The notes beneath the pieces were generated by a model. It was not told the origin of the DNA. It worked only from the letters and a program-made list of their open reading frames with translations, and made no database searches. A stretch of DNA of 64,000 bases, taken from the NCBI GenBank assembly GCA_040901445.1, contig JBBDYQ010000014.1:1-64000 (forward strand). Direction: 5' to 3'. The position numbers and the translations under genes are program-made. Source of the DNA: Thermoleophilaceae bacterium (GTDB lineage Bacteria; Actinomycetota; Thermoleophilia; Solirubrobacterales; Thermoleophilaceae). How positions within the stretch are numbered: position 1 is the stretch's first letter; each line of letters starts with the position of its first letter. Positions 13,803-18,991 of this stretch are shown here, piece by piece.

Positions 13803-15158
13803 CTAGCCCCCGTTGCGGACGGAGCTCCCGTTGGTGTCGCGCAGCGGCTCGGATACGCGCGAATCCGGCTCGTGGTCCCGGATCCGGACGGCCTCTATCC
13901 GGTTCTCGCGCACCGACTCCACCCTCAGCGAGTAGCCGTTGGCGCGCACCATGTCGCCGCGCTTGGGAAGCCTGCCCAGCTCGGCGAAGACGAAGCCGCC
14001 GACCGAGTTGTAGGCGTCGGAGTCCACCGGCAGGTCCATGCCGTAGTCGGCGAGGTCGGTAATCGGCACGTGGCCGCGCACGTACCAGTCCCCGTTGGCC
14101 AGCTGGCGCACCTCGCCGCGGGCTGGGTCGGTCTCGTCGGCGATCTCCCCGACGATCTCCTCGATGATGTCCTCCACCGACACGATGCCCACGGTGCGGC
14201 CGTACTCGTCCACGACGATGGCCATCGGAAGGCGCTCGCGCTGGAGGTCGGCCAGCAGGTCGTCGAGCGGCTTGGTCTCGGGCACGATCATCGCGTCCTT
14301 GACCACGGGCTCGATGGACGCCTTCGCCCCGTCGCTCATGAGCAGGCGCGCGAGTGAGTTGTTGTGCACGGTTCCTCGCACGCGGTCCGTGTTGTCCTCC
14401 TCGGTGACCACGAGCCGGGTGTGGCCTGACTCGACGCAGCGCCGCAGGGCCGTCTCGACGTTCTCGGACACGTCGACGGTGACCACGGCCGGCAGCGGCG
14501 TCATCACCTGGCGCGCCTCCTGATCGTGGAGGTGGAAGACGCCCGACAGCATCACCGCCTCACCCGGGTCCAGGGTGCCGCCGTGCGCGCTGCGCGCGAT
14601 CAGCAGCTTGAGGTCGTCCGAGCTCGACGCCTCCTCGAACTCGGCCTCGGGGTTGACACCGAGCGCGCGAAGCATCCCGTTCGACACCGTGTTGAGCGCG
14701 ATGATGAGCGGCTTGAGGCTGATGCGGAACCACTCCAGGCCGGGCGCGGTGCGGCGCGACGTCCCCTCTGCGTGGACGATCGAGTAGATCTTCGGGACCT
14801 GCTCGCCGATCGTGATGTGGAGGCTGGTGGCGATCAGGTAGGCGAGCGCGAACGCGATCGCCACCGCGACGCCGTGGCTGGCCACCTCGCCGAGCGGCTC
14901 CTCCAGCAGGCTGGCGAGGGCGGGCTCGCCGAGGAAGCCGATGCCGATCGACGCCATCGTGATGCCGAGCTGGCAGGTGGCGAGGTACTCGTCGATGTGG
15001 TCGACCTGCTTGAGAGCGAGGGTGGCGCCGCGCGCGCCGTCGGCCTCGAGGGCCTCCATCTTCGAGCGGCGCGTGCGCACCAGGGCGAACTCGGCCGCGA
15101 CGAAGAACCCGTTCGCGAGCACGAGCAGGACGAGCGCGACGAGCAGTAGGGCCGTCAC
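13803..15158 (-). CDS. CNNM/CorC-family membrane protein (hemolysin family)
   Basis: The 451-aa product has the DUF21 (CNNM) transmembrane domain at about 1-190: three to four helices with ANGFFVAAEFALVRTRRSKM and GFLGEPALASLLEEP. A CBS pair follows at about 210-330 (VMTPLPAVVTVDVSEN, IVVDEYGRTVGIVSVEDIIE), and a CorC_HlyC cytoplasmic domain at about 350-430. Members are linked to Mg2+/Co2+ export or Na+-coupled Mg2+ extrusion; the hemolysin name is historical. The start is ATG. The small hypothetical gene at 13473-13781 follows closely. Confidence 0.93.
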   Translation of the reverse strand: MTALLLVALVLLVLANGFFVAAEFALVRTRRSKMEALEADGARGATLALKQVDHIDEYLATCQLGITMASIGIGFLGEPALASLLEEPLGEVASHGVAVAIAFALAYLIATSLHITIGEQVPKIYSIVHAEGTSRRTAPGLEWFRISLKPLIIALNTVSNGMLRALGVNPEAEFEEASSSDDLKLLIARSAHGGTLDPGEAVMLSGVFHLHDQEARQVMTPLPAVVTVDVSENVETALRRCVESGHTRLVVTEEDNTDRVRGTVHNNSLARLLMSDGAKASIEPVVKDAMIVPETKPLDDLLADLQRERLPMAIVVDEYGRTVGIVSVEDIIEEIVGEIADETDPARGEVRQLANGDWYVRGHVPITDLADYGMDLPVDSDAYNSVGGFVFAELGRLPKRGDMVRANGYSLRVESVRENRIEAVRIRDHEPDSRVSEPLRDTNGSSVRNGG

Positions 15159-15251: not shown

Positions 15252-17843
15252 CTACCGGAGACGGCGGCTGCGGGCCACCGCGGCGTACACCTGCTGCGGG
15301 CCGTCGCGCTCGTCCTCCCAGGCGGCCAGCACTCCGCCGCGCGAGCAGGCAAGCCGCGGGCGCCAGGCGTTGCCGCCGCCGCGCCCGGCATCGTCCACCC
15401 GGTAGGCGGGGCCGCGGCGCTCGCCGTCCGCGAGCCGCGCGATGCGGATGTCGTTCTGGCCGGATGCCGCGTCCTGGAAGGCCACGAGCACGTCGTCGCG
15501 CGCCGCGGCGCAGGCCGCGCCGGCGAACGCCGACGCGTGGCGGGCGCCGTGCGGGTCGGCCTGGTGGACGCCCTCGGCGCCGGGACTCGCCACGTACACG
15601 TCGTACATCGGGTGCGGGCGCCGCTGCGACTCCTCGCCCGGCCCGAAGTCGGTGAATGCCACGAACGGCCGCCCGGCGCCGAGCACCGCCTGCGGCGAGT
15701 CGCCGAAGCCCTCGCCCTGTGCGTCGTTGACCTGGTCGGCGGCGCCGAAGGAGTCGCCGCCGTCGCCGGAGGCGCGCGCGAACACGTCCCAGTCGTAGTT
15801 GAGGAAGTCCGTCCACGCCACCAGCACGCGGCTGCCGCGGGCCTCGACGCTCGGCGCCCAGGCGTTGTCGAGGTTGGCCGCCGGCGGCGCGGGCTCGCCG
15901 CCGTCGAGGCGCCTCGCCGGCTCCGGCTCGCCGGCGGCGATGCGCGCGTGGAAGACCCCGGCCTGCGGGGAGCCGTTGGGATGACGGTCGCGCTCGTCCA
16001 CGAAGACCGCCTGCACGACATCGCCGGCGCCCTGGGCCAGCGCCGGCTTCCACTGCGCCACCCCGGCCGCGGGACCCGGGTCGAGGGGCGCCGCCGGGCC
16101 GAAGCCGGCGCCGAAGTCCGCCGAGCGGCTGAGATACACGCGCTCGCGCCCGCTCGAACGGTCCACCCACGCCACCGTCACCGTCCCGTCCGGGGCGAGC
16201 GCCACCGCCGGCCACCACTCGTCGGTGGCCCCGGCCGGGCGGCCGGTGGGGCGCACGCGCTCGGACCACGTGCGCCCGCCGTCATCGGAGCGCACGAGGA
16301 AGATCTGGTCGCCGCCGCCGGTGCGCTCCTCGAACGCGAGCACTGCGTGGCGGCCGCGGCGCGCCACCGCGGCGTTGCGCTGCGGATGCGGCGAGGGGCT
16401 GGCCGCACGCGACGGCGTGAAACGCGTGCGCGTGCGCCGGCCGCGCCAGCGCCGGCGCGGGCGCGAGCGCGCGACCTCCACGTCGCGGAAGAACACCCCC
16501 TCCACGTGCCCGTCCTCGCACGGCCCCGGGGGGTCGCCCTCACACTCCACACCCGACCCGGGCGCCAGCGCCTCACCGGCGAGGCCCAGCCTGCGCCGGC
16601 GCTCGTCGAAGGGCTCGCCCGGGTGGAGGGGATCGGGCACCACCCAGGGCGAGGACTGGAGGCCGGGTGCGGACGGCTGGCCCACGAGGGAGCCTCCCTC
16701 CTCCCGCCCCGTCCGTGGCTTGACGGCGACGTGCGACTGGTGGTCGGCGTAGAAGCTGAAGACGCCTCCTGTCATCTCCGGCAGGGCGAGCGCCTCGAAG
16801 GACGGGTGGCGAACCAGGTCGCTGTAGCCCGACGCCTTGAGCAGATCGGGATACCAGAGGCCGCTGGTGGACACGAGGCTGCCCACGAAGAACTCGGGCT
16901 GCACGAGCAGGTCCACATGGCGCTGGTCGAGCTTCTGCACCACGTCCGGCATCCAGGCGTCCTTGCTCGTCACGAAGCCCAGCGTGCCCACCGGGGTCTC
17001 CACGGCGCCGAGGCCGTCGCTGACCTCGCCGGGCACGAGGTCGAGACCGAGCGAGCCCTCGTCGGGGCCCAGCTCAGTGGGCGTGAGGTAGGTCTTCACC
17101 TGCTTCGAGATCAGCCGGCCATCGGGGTCGAAGACGAGCGCCATCACGGAGGGGTCGCCCCGCACCGCCTCGTACGCGTAGTCACGCGAGGGCTCGGAGG
17201 GGTCGCGCAGCAGCGCCACCCGCGCAGGGTCCTCCTCGTCGCAGCGCTCGGCGCCGGGCGGCGGCTGGAACGTGTCGCGGTCGGCGCAGACGATGCGCCA
17301 CTCGCGCACCATGTCCACGCCGGCGTGGAGATAGACGTCGTGGCGGTCCGCCATCTCGGCGAACGGCTCGATGACCGTGCGCCCGAAGGTGTCGGTGAGC
17401 GCGGTGGCCAGCAGGCGCGTCTGGACGATGCGCGTGGCGAGCTCGGGGAAGCGGGCGGCGTAGTAGGCCTCCTGCGGGGCGTATGCCGCGATCAGGGTGA
17501 CGATCGAGGCCTCCAGCGAGCCGGCCGCGCGCGCGAGCTGCGCGCGCTCACCCGTCAACGCCGCGAACAGCCCGACCGACTCCGGCCAGAGCACGAGGTC
17601 GCGCGCCGTCTCCGGCGGGCGGGCGGGGTCGTCGGGGCCGCGCAGATGCGGCTCGGCCTCCCGTTCCATCAGCCCGAACAGCTTCTCCCGGTAGCTCTCG
17701 CGGCTCTCCAGCCAGCCGATGCCGAGCCTGGGCTGCATGGCGAAGACGCGCACCTCGCGCGCCTCCGCGGCGCCGGCGGGAGCGAGCGCCAGCAGCAGCC
17801 CGAGCGCGCTAAGCCAAGCTGTCGATCTGCGTGGCAAGCGCAA
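15252..17843 (-). CDS. Secreted nitrilase-like domain fused to BNR beta-propeller
   Basis: The 863-aa product has a Sec signal peptide (1-28, ending GAAEA). Residues about 30-430 resemble the carbon-nitrogen hydrolase superfamily: LVLWPESVG (Glu88), VKTYLTPTE (Lys250) and GFVTSKDAWMPD. In the last motif the family has Cys (ICYDxxFPE), but here the aligned residue is Ser293, so ordinary thioester chemistry is unlikely. An Arg-rich joint leads to a sialidase-type propeller (about 490-863) with an Asp-box, RSDDGGRTWSE, and degenerate repeats (ASGDGGDSFGAA). The proposed start is TTG and overlaps the pterin dehydratase gene by 35 bp; the exact start is unsure. Function unknown; perhaps an extracellular binding or amide-processing protein. 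Confidence 0.7.
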   Translation of the reverse strand: MRLPRRSTAWLSALGLLLALAPAGAAEAREVRVFAMQPRLGIGWLESRESYREKLFGLMEREAEPHLRGPDDPARPPETARDLVLWPESVGLFAALTGERAQLARAAGSLEASIVTLIAAYAPQEAYYAARFPELATRIVQTRLLATALTDTFGRTVIEPFAEMADRHDVYLHAGVDMVREWRIVCADRDTFQPPPGAERCDEEDPARVALLRDPSEPSRDYAYEAVRGDPSVMALVFDPDGRLISKQVKTYLTPTELGPDEGSLGLDLVPGEVSDGLGAVETPVGTLGFVTSKDAWMPDVVQKLDQRHVDLLVQPEFFVGSLVSTSGLWYPDLLKASGYSDLVRHPSFEALALPEMTGGVFSFYADHQSHVAVKPRTGREEGGSLVGQPSAPGLQSSPWVVPDPLHPGEPFDERRRRLGLAGEALAPGSGVECEGDPPGPCEDGHVEGVFFRDVEVARSRPRRRWRGRRTRTRFTPSRAASPSPHPQRNAAVARRGRHAVLAFEERTGGGDQIFLVRSDDGGRTWSERVRPTGRPAGATDEWWPAVALAPDGTVTVAWVDRSSGRERVYLSRSADFGAGFGPAAPLDPGPAAGVAQWKPALAQGAGDVVQAVFVDERDRHPNGSPQAGVFHARIAAGEPEPARRLDGGEPAPPAANLDNAWAPSVEARGSRVLVAWTDFLNYDWDVFARASGDGGDSFGAADQVNDAQGEGFGDSPQAVLGAGRPFVAFTDFGPGEESQRRPHPMYDVYVASPGAEGVHQADPHGARHASAFAGAACAAARDDVLVAFQDAASGQNDIRIARLADGERRGPAYRVDDAGRGGGNAWRPRLACSRGGVLAAWEDERDGPQQVYAAVARSRRLR

Positions 17844-18087
17844 AGTCGTTCTCGGTGAGCCCGCCCTGCGAGTGCGTCGAGAGCGAGACCTTCACCTTGT
17901 TCCACGAGATCGACAGGCCGGGGTGGTGGTCCATCTCCTGGGCCGCGGGGGTGATCCGGTTCACGAAGTCCACCGATCCCACGAAGTCGTCGAAGGCGAA
18001 GGTGCGCTCGATCGAATCGCCGCTCCGCTCCCAGCCGGGCAGGCTCTGCAGCCGGCCGTCGATCTCCTCGTCGCTCAGAGTCGTCAT
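17809..18087 (-). CDS. Pterin-4a-carbinolamine dehydratase
   Basis: The 92-aa product is the complete small dehydratase (DCoH family) that recycles oxidised pterin cofactors. The active-site motif EMDHHPGLSISWNKV contains the paired His, Pro and Trp of the family, and FDDFVGSVDFVNRI is the preceding helix. The ATG at 18087 has GGGAGG 5 nt upstream, so the longer in-frame upstream Met is not the start. No phenylalanine hydroxylase gene is near; bacterial homologues often occur without one. It shares a very short divergent region with the BtuF-like gene and its end overlaps the nitrilase-like gene. Confidence 0.93.
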   Translation of the reverse strand: MTTLSDEEIDGRLQSLPGWERSGDSIERTFAFDDFVGSVDFVNRITPAAQEMDHHPGLSISWNKVKVSLSTHSQGGLTENDFALATQIDSLA

Positions 18088-18097
18088 GGTTCCTCCC

Positions 18098-18991
18098 GTG
18101 AGGATCGCCTCGCTCGTACCTTCCTCGACCGAGATGCTGTTCGCGCTCGGCCTCGGCGACCGCGTCGTCGCGGTCACCCATGAGTGCGATTATCCGCCAG
18201 AGGCGGCCCTCCTGCCGCATCTCACGCGCAGCGTCATCCCTCCCGGCCTCTCCACGGCGGAGATCGACCGGGCGGTGCGCGAGCACACGCAGCGCGGCGA
18301 GGCGCTCTACGAGCTCGACGAGCCGGCGCTGGACGAGCTCGAGCCGGACCTGGTGGTCACCCAGGCGGTGTGCGAGGTGTGCGCGGTCTCCTACGACGAC
18401 GTGGTCGCCGCAGCGGGCCGCATCCCGTCGCGCCCGACGGTGCTGTCGCTCGACCCCTCGACCCTCGGCGAGGTGCTGGCAGACGTCCGCCGGCTGGCCG
18501 AGGCCACCGAGTCCGAACCGGCGGGCGAGGCGCTGCTCGGGGAGGCCGTGGCCCGCATCGACCGGGTTCGCGAGGCGGTGGCCGGCGCGGACCGGCCGCG
18601 GGTCGCGGCGCTGGAATGGCTCGACCCGGTGTTCATCGGGGGTCACTGGGTGCCGACGATGATCGAGCACGCCGGAGGCGAGGACGCCCTGGGCTATGCG
18701 GGGGAGAAGTCGGCCACCGTGTCCTGGGAGGAGGTTCAGGCGGCGGCGCCGGAGGTCGTCGTGGCCATGCCGTGCGGGTACGACGCCCAGGCCGCGGCGG
18801 CGGAGGCGCTGGCGCACGCGGAGCGCCTGGCCGCGCTGGGCACCCGCGCCGTCCACGCGGTGGACGCGGCCGCCTACTTCTCCCGTCCGGGGCCTCGCCT
18901 GGTGGACGGCATAGAGCTGCTGGGCCACCTGCTCCACCCCGGGCTCGTTCCCGCGCCGCCTCCCGGGCGCTTCCGCACCATCGAGGCATAG
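18098..18991 (+). CDS. BtuF-like cobalamin/siderophore-binding protein, cytoplasmic form
   Basis: The 297-aa product is of the periplasmic-binding-protein fold of BtuF/FecB: VRIASLVPSSTEMLFALGLG, RVVAVTHECDYP, PDLVVTQAVCEVC and the second lobe RVAALEWLDPVFIGGHWVPT. It has no signal peptide or lipobox. Members of this type in Gram-positive and archaeal genomes are annotated as cobalamin-binding proteins, but without export they may not serve transport. No ABC permease is adjacent. I prefer the GTG at 18098 (MRIASLVPS is the family start); an in-frame ATG at 18086 would overlap the divergent gene start. The next gene begins 3 bp after the stop. Confidence 0.82.
   Translation: MRIASLVPSSTEMLFALGLGDRVVAVTHECDYPPEAALLPHLTRSVIPPGLSTAEIDRAVREHTQRGEALYELDEPALDELEPDLVVTQAVCEVCAVSYDDVVAAAGRIPSRPTVLSLDPSTLGEVLADVRRLAEATESEPAGEALLGEAVARIDRVREAVAGADRPRVAALEWLDPVFIGGHWVPTMIEHAGGEDALGYAGEKSATVSWEEVQAAAPEVVVAMPCGYDAQAAAAEALAHAERLAALGTRAVHAVDAAAYFSRPGPRLVDGIELLGHLLHPGLVPAPPPGRFRTIEA

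Follow-up and report, generated by a model that had tools for sequence, protein, structure and literature searches.

The question raised by this locus is whether an enzyme superfamily recognised by its thiol nucleophile contains a real serine variant, or whether we are looking at a chance substitution in a dead copy. Nitrilase superfamily enzymes work by a Glu-Lys-Cys mechanism, and the Cys nucleophile is a defining feature. Within the window (the whole 64,000-nucleotide stretch analysed here, from contig JBBDYQ010000014.1 of a Thermoleophilaceae bacterium), a sequence-only reading had picked out a secreted nitrilase-like domain with Ser at the Cys position, fused to a sialidase-type propeller, and had proposed either a Ser-based amidase or a binding protein.

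The gene occupies positions 15252..17843 on the reverse strand (the strand was left unstated in that reading) and encodes 863 amino acids plus a TAG stop, from a TTG start at 17843 (or a TTG at 17837). Residues 1-28 (RLPRRSTAWLSALGLLLALAPAGAAEA; 17760..17843, reverse strand) form a putative signal peptide, with cleavage likely before REVRVFA, and the N-termini of homologues are hydrophobic at the same place, consistent with the earlier call of a secreted protein. The nitrilase-fold (CN_hydrolase) domain covers residues 29-457 (16473..17759, reverse strand) and is followed by a linker and a seven-repeat BNR/Asp-box beta-propeller, residues ~458-863 (15255..16472, reverse strand), both assigned from Pfam, profiles and an AlphaFold2 model. 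On the same strand lie an overlapping upstream gene for pterin-4a-carbinolamine dehydratase (17809..18177) and a downstream gene for a CNNM/CorC-HlyC membrane protein (13803..15158); the dehydratase adjoins the gene in all examined homologues of the window's clade, and CNNM in most. The TTG start overlaps the 3' end of the dehydratase gene by ~30 nt (17809-17843), an overlap also present in the relative L015, and translational coupling of the two genes is likely. The same genome encodes three ordinary CN_hydrolases, so the Ser-type gene is not its sole nitrilase-fold protein.

Pfam gave sub-threshold evidence for the N-terminal domain: the CN_hydrolase model scored 20.0 bits (E 4.6e-4) on the full-length protein and 22.6 bits on the domain alone, relative to a gathering cut-off of 23.2 bits, and BNR_2 matched with an E-value of 0.0013. 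The assignment of both domains therefore needed further support. A search of NCBIfam with the window protein returned no usable family, and a search of the PDB with its single sequence returned a chance match only; a profile of its relatives matched mouse Nit2, yeast Nit, plant NIT4 and other nitrilases. From an alignment of 24 relatives, AlphaFold2 produced a confident two-domain model of the whole protein (pLDDT 88, pTM 0.91) and a model of the nitrilase domain alone (pLDDT 90, pTM 0.92). The best 50 PDB fold matches to the latter were all nitrilase superfamily members, headed by Nit2 (2w1v; E 1.2e-11), and the full-length model matched sialidases and GH145/PL27-like propellers as well as Nit2. 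Judged from this predicted structure, the N-terminal domain is a nitrilase superfamily fold, as first proposed, although at 429 residues it is larger than the ~270-300 residues of PF00795 domains.

The active site can be placed on this fold with some precision. HMMER alignments set Lys250 (17094..17096, reverse strand) on Nit2 Lys112 and Ser293 (an AGC codon at 16965..16967, reverse strand) on Nit2 Cys153, where the Nit2 residue numbers were counted from the printed alignment, and the alignment with plant NIT4 agrees. Profile-profile alignment (hhalign) against Cys-type relatives lays TSKDAW on ICFDAF with a probability of 100% and an E-value of 4.8e-58. Glu88, at the catalytic Glu position (17580..17582, reverse strand), Lys250 and Ser293 are all invariant among 17 diverse members, and so is a second active-site Glu that had been overlooked, Glu257 (17073..17075, reverse strand), which aligns with the Glu of the NIT4 TALER motif. 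Glu88, Lys250 and Ser293 thus stand as originally assigned, with numbering from the TTG at 17843. The two candidates for a hidden thiol, Cys186 and Cys201, lie off the nucleophile site and are conserved in the nearest homologues only, not in the wider family; among the 17 diverse members no Cys is conserved elsewhere in the protein. Because Ser occupies the Cys position and no conserved Cys could take its place, the protein is a variant of the fold and superfamily without the status of a canonical Cys nitrilase. It shares with PF00795 members such as Nit2, plant NIT4, amidases and cyanide dihydratase the fold and the way in which Glu, Lys, second Glu and nucleophile are ordered and spaced. It differs from them in its Ser, in a Lys directly after the nucleophile position (Lys, Arg or Leu across its family) where they mostly carry an aromatic residue, in an acidic residue at 317, and in its signal peptide and C-terminal propeller.

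Relatives were collected by searches within the class and phylum, a scan of named genomes, and two further phylum-level searches with a profile. Scanning genome contigs with the single window protein gave no match; with an alignment as query, relatives were recovered. The architecture proved to belong to a widespread family and not to a singleton. Ser-type members span Actinomycetota, Myxococcota, Bacillota, Binatota and one alphaproteobacterial MAG, the organism names being those of the database records, many of which are MAGs. Among family members with the nucleophile site aligned, and with L104 (discussed below) left aside, 48 of 51 carry Ser and the other three Gly. The E-K-E residues hardly vary across these relatives. 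The named-genome scan used the peptide patterns KDAWMPD and LVQPEFF and so favours members with those loops; members recovered by profile or whole protein only (L019-L023, L056-L060, L094-L101) nevertheless show Ser and an acidic 317 just as consistently. The Ser codon is AGY in 37 members and TCN in 11, and the two codon classes are mixed even within the window's clade (TCG in L016 and L017, AGC in L018 and L052). A change between AGY and TCN takes two base changes, so Ser has been either kept by selection or regained, and from these codons it appears to be selected at this position. Two of the Gly-site members are also without Lys or Glu of the catalytic set (L063, with Ala for Glu and Arg for Lys, and L103, with Glu for Lys), which suggests that the set decays together. 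The third, L037 (7875-10331) from Polyangium sp. 6x1, keeps E-K-E intact beside its Gly, and its congeners L038 and L049 have Ser; it offers a natural S-to-G case that would be useful as a control.

The nearest relatives outside the Ser family carry Cys, and comparison with them reveals a second difference. Position 317, in a QPE/QDE/QPD motif (Glu317 in the window protein; 16893..16895, reverse strand), carries an acidic residue in 47 of 48 Ser-type proteins and in none of 37 Cys-type proteins. The residue after the nucleophile also differs, being K, R or L (one D) in the Ser type and mostly Y, F, M or E in the Cys type. The association between Ser and an acidic 317 gives a Fisher p of 2e-23 with kinship ignored, but the tree contains only about two independent pairs, so the pattern across these sequences is striking without being statistically independent. 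The closest Cys-type relatives (L091, L093, L104, L108 and L110) share the extended QPxAN and FDGQS-like motifs, but have the Cys nucleophile, Ser or Ala at 317, no propeller and mostly no signal peptide. A tree with a single origin of Ser could not be rejected (p-AU 0.238), but the best one requires two Ser/Cys changes because L104 (1246-2607), a Cys-type protein with a full E-K-E set and an FDGQS motif, is nested inside the Ser-type group; its placement is possibly a reversion or a second origin.

The initial description of the propeller can be refined. The Asp-box/BNR fold stands, but there are seven Asp-box repeats, both in the sequence and in the strand order of the AlphaFold2 model, where sialidase propellers have six blades, and the GH33 sialidase catalytic set (Arg triad, Tyr/Glu, Asp) is absent among the conserved residues of 12 propellers. 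Only P, G and F are invariant among these 12, and positions conserved at 95% or more number 5 of 406 in the propeller versus 38 of 429 in the nitrilase domain. The window propeller thus resembles those of GH33 sialidases, GH145- and PL27-like proteins and 5hx0 in fold and Asp-box motifs, but nothing in its conservation points to a glycosidase or lyase site. Being less conserved and lacking a retained polar set, it probably serves for binding or as a scaffold, without a catalytic role, and catalysis would be placed in the nitrilase domain. A C-terminal propeller of this kind is shared by proteins of the SKDAWMPD group, ~800-970 residues long, across Actinomycetota, Binatota, Bacillota, Myxococcota and the alphaproteobacterial MAG. 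In a sister group, found among relatives of the window's organism and elsewhere in Actinomycetota, the Ser-type domain either stands alone or follows a GDPD domain (E 6e-30); the GDPD fusion is seen in L019 (7997-10378; tested with Pfam), L020, L022, L056 and L057. Literature searches found nothing relevant on a nitrilase-propeller fusion and no paper describing a nitrilase-GDPD fusion.

Most Ser-type members look exported, as read from their N-termini, by Sec, Tat-like (an RRQFLK motif in L033, L036 and L040) or lipoprotein signals (L032, L037, L038, L094-L096), and the Cys-type relatives mostly have no signal. Four Nitriliruptoraceae members (L041, L044, L047, L051) have no signal peptide, and their gene follows an overlapping MFS_2 transporter gene, which suggests a cytosolic catabolic operon. 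Together with the Cys-type L108, which has a hydrophobic N-terminus, these cytosolic-looking Ser-type proteins weaken export as a strict reason for Ser. Gene neighbourhood was discarded as a general guide to function, since it varies by clade (pterin dehydratase and CNNM, MFS_2 in Nitriliruptoraceae, others elsewhere).

Serine at a nitrilase nucleophile position has natural precedents. Cephalopod proteins of the symplectin/vanin family include natural E-K-S triads (PMC5541922), but these arose sporadically and repeatedly within one animal lineage and carry a vanin-type base domain instead of a propeller. The Lnt homologue BCG_2279c also has E-K-S (PMC3850990); it and Lnt resemble the window protein in having an extracytoplasmic nitrilase fold, but are membrane-integral without a propeller, and no close sequence relation to the window protein was seen. 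Natural E-K-S nitrilases were therefore already known in sporadic form, and what is described here is a cross-phylum, mostly exported family whose main branch is fused to a propeller.

Because distant bacteria share this Ser, the other active-site residues and the propeller, the window protein looks less like the product of a random mutation, or a dead copy, than like a real, undescribed and probably active Ser variant of the superfamily. We favour, with a probability of about 0.6, an exported hydrolase or acyltransferase with an E-K-E-S site and Ser293 as nucleophile, joined to a non-catalytic propeller, its activity being inferred. By analogy with the Cys enzymes, Glu88 would act as general base and take the proton of Ser293, Lys250 would stabilise the oxyanion and Glu257 would help to position the substrate; an acyl-serine (Ser-O-acyl) intermediate would form and be resolved by water or an amine. 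Glu317, and Lys294 beside the Ser, may help to activate the less acidic hydroxyl, and Glu317 may alternatively be a source of extra basicity or a binding point for a cationic substrate. The function is probably hydrolytic or acyl-transferring, the substrate most likely being an extracellular amide or ester whose acyl group is hydrolysed or transferred, and the propeller probably binds substrate or a surface, or orders an oligomer. A broader proposal, that the family is a cross-phylum clade of true Ser-nucleophile enzymes (E-K-E-S plus the new acidic residue) that descended from cytosolic Cys enzymes and became suited to an extracellular setting in which a thiol would oxidise, is more tentative, and we would give it somewhat short of even odds.

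Evidence from other nitrilase-fold proteins cuts both ways. Some activity, though low, survives in Lnt when Ser replaces Cys (PMC10313180), and acyl-enzyme formation has been reported for such a variant in work cited by PMC3850990. Against an active Ser stand the C158S mutant of MtCPA, whose strongly diminished reactivity allowed unreacted ligand to be seen (PMC4812014), the failure of BCG_2279c, a natural C-to-S homologue, to replace Lnt on four lipoproteins (PMC3850990), and the Gly of L037 in an otherwise intact site. A binding pseudoenzyme could accommodate the same Gly protein and the same mutant behaviour, in which canonical enzymes changed from Cys to Ser still bind ligand yet hardly react (PMC4812014). 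Its Ser pocket would hold, without turning it over, a ligand such as an amide, amine or peptide, and its propeller, as propellers often are, would be a second binding module; the whole would serve outside the cell as a sensor or to bind solutes or surfaces. We regard this as the main rival, less likely but deserving of attention: a binding pocket need not keep a general base and an oxyanion Lys, yet E-K-E-S is retained jointly across phyla and through switches of Ser codon class, and loss of the nucleophile in L063 and L103 comes with loss of Lys or Glu. Of the two options first proposed, the Ser-based enzyme fits better than the binding protein with an E-K-E-S set that is conserved as a whole.

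A special case of the Ser-enzyme reading would be an Lnt-like N-acyltransferase or lipid-amidase acting on membrane lipids or lipoproteins, with the Ser ester as acyl donor. No extracytoplasmic nitrilase-fold enzyme is better known than Lnt, whose C-to-S form retains acylating activity (PMC3850990, PMC10313180), and the GDPD domain fused in the sister proteins belongs to a family that cuts phospholipid head-group diesters. The window protein, however, has no Lnt-type membrane domain, only an N-terminal signal peptide and a propeller at its C-terminus; the neighbouring genes change from clade to clade and the Nitriliruptoraceae members look cytosolic, making this special case improbable. The TTG start and weak Pfam match of the window gene might suggest that its Ser arose through an error of sequencing or annotation, or through an inactivating mutation that a single genome acquired recently. 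This reading is refuted, with next to no probability left to it: both the Ser and the architecture recur in dozens of proteins that come from independent assemblies, isolate genomes (Polyangium sp.) among them.

Engineered Cys-to-Ser nitrilases are strongly impaired, and a natural Ser clade with Cys relatives and a candidate compensating residue makes the conversion from thiol to hydroxyl testable, as well as the reason why most Ser-type members are exported. Annotators gain a family that either escapes the current Pfam and NCBIfam models or falls short of their cut-offs. Substitution of the nucleophile also extends beyond the Ser family, with Gly at this position in the nitrilase-like proteins L107, L124 and L128.
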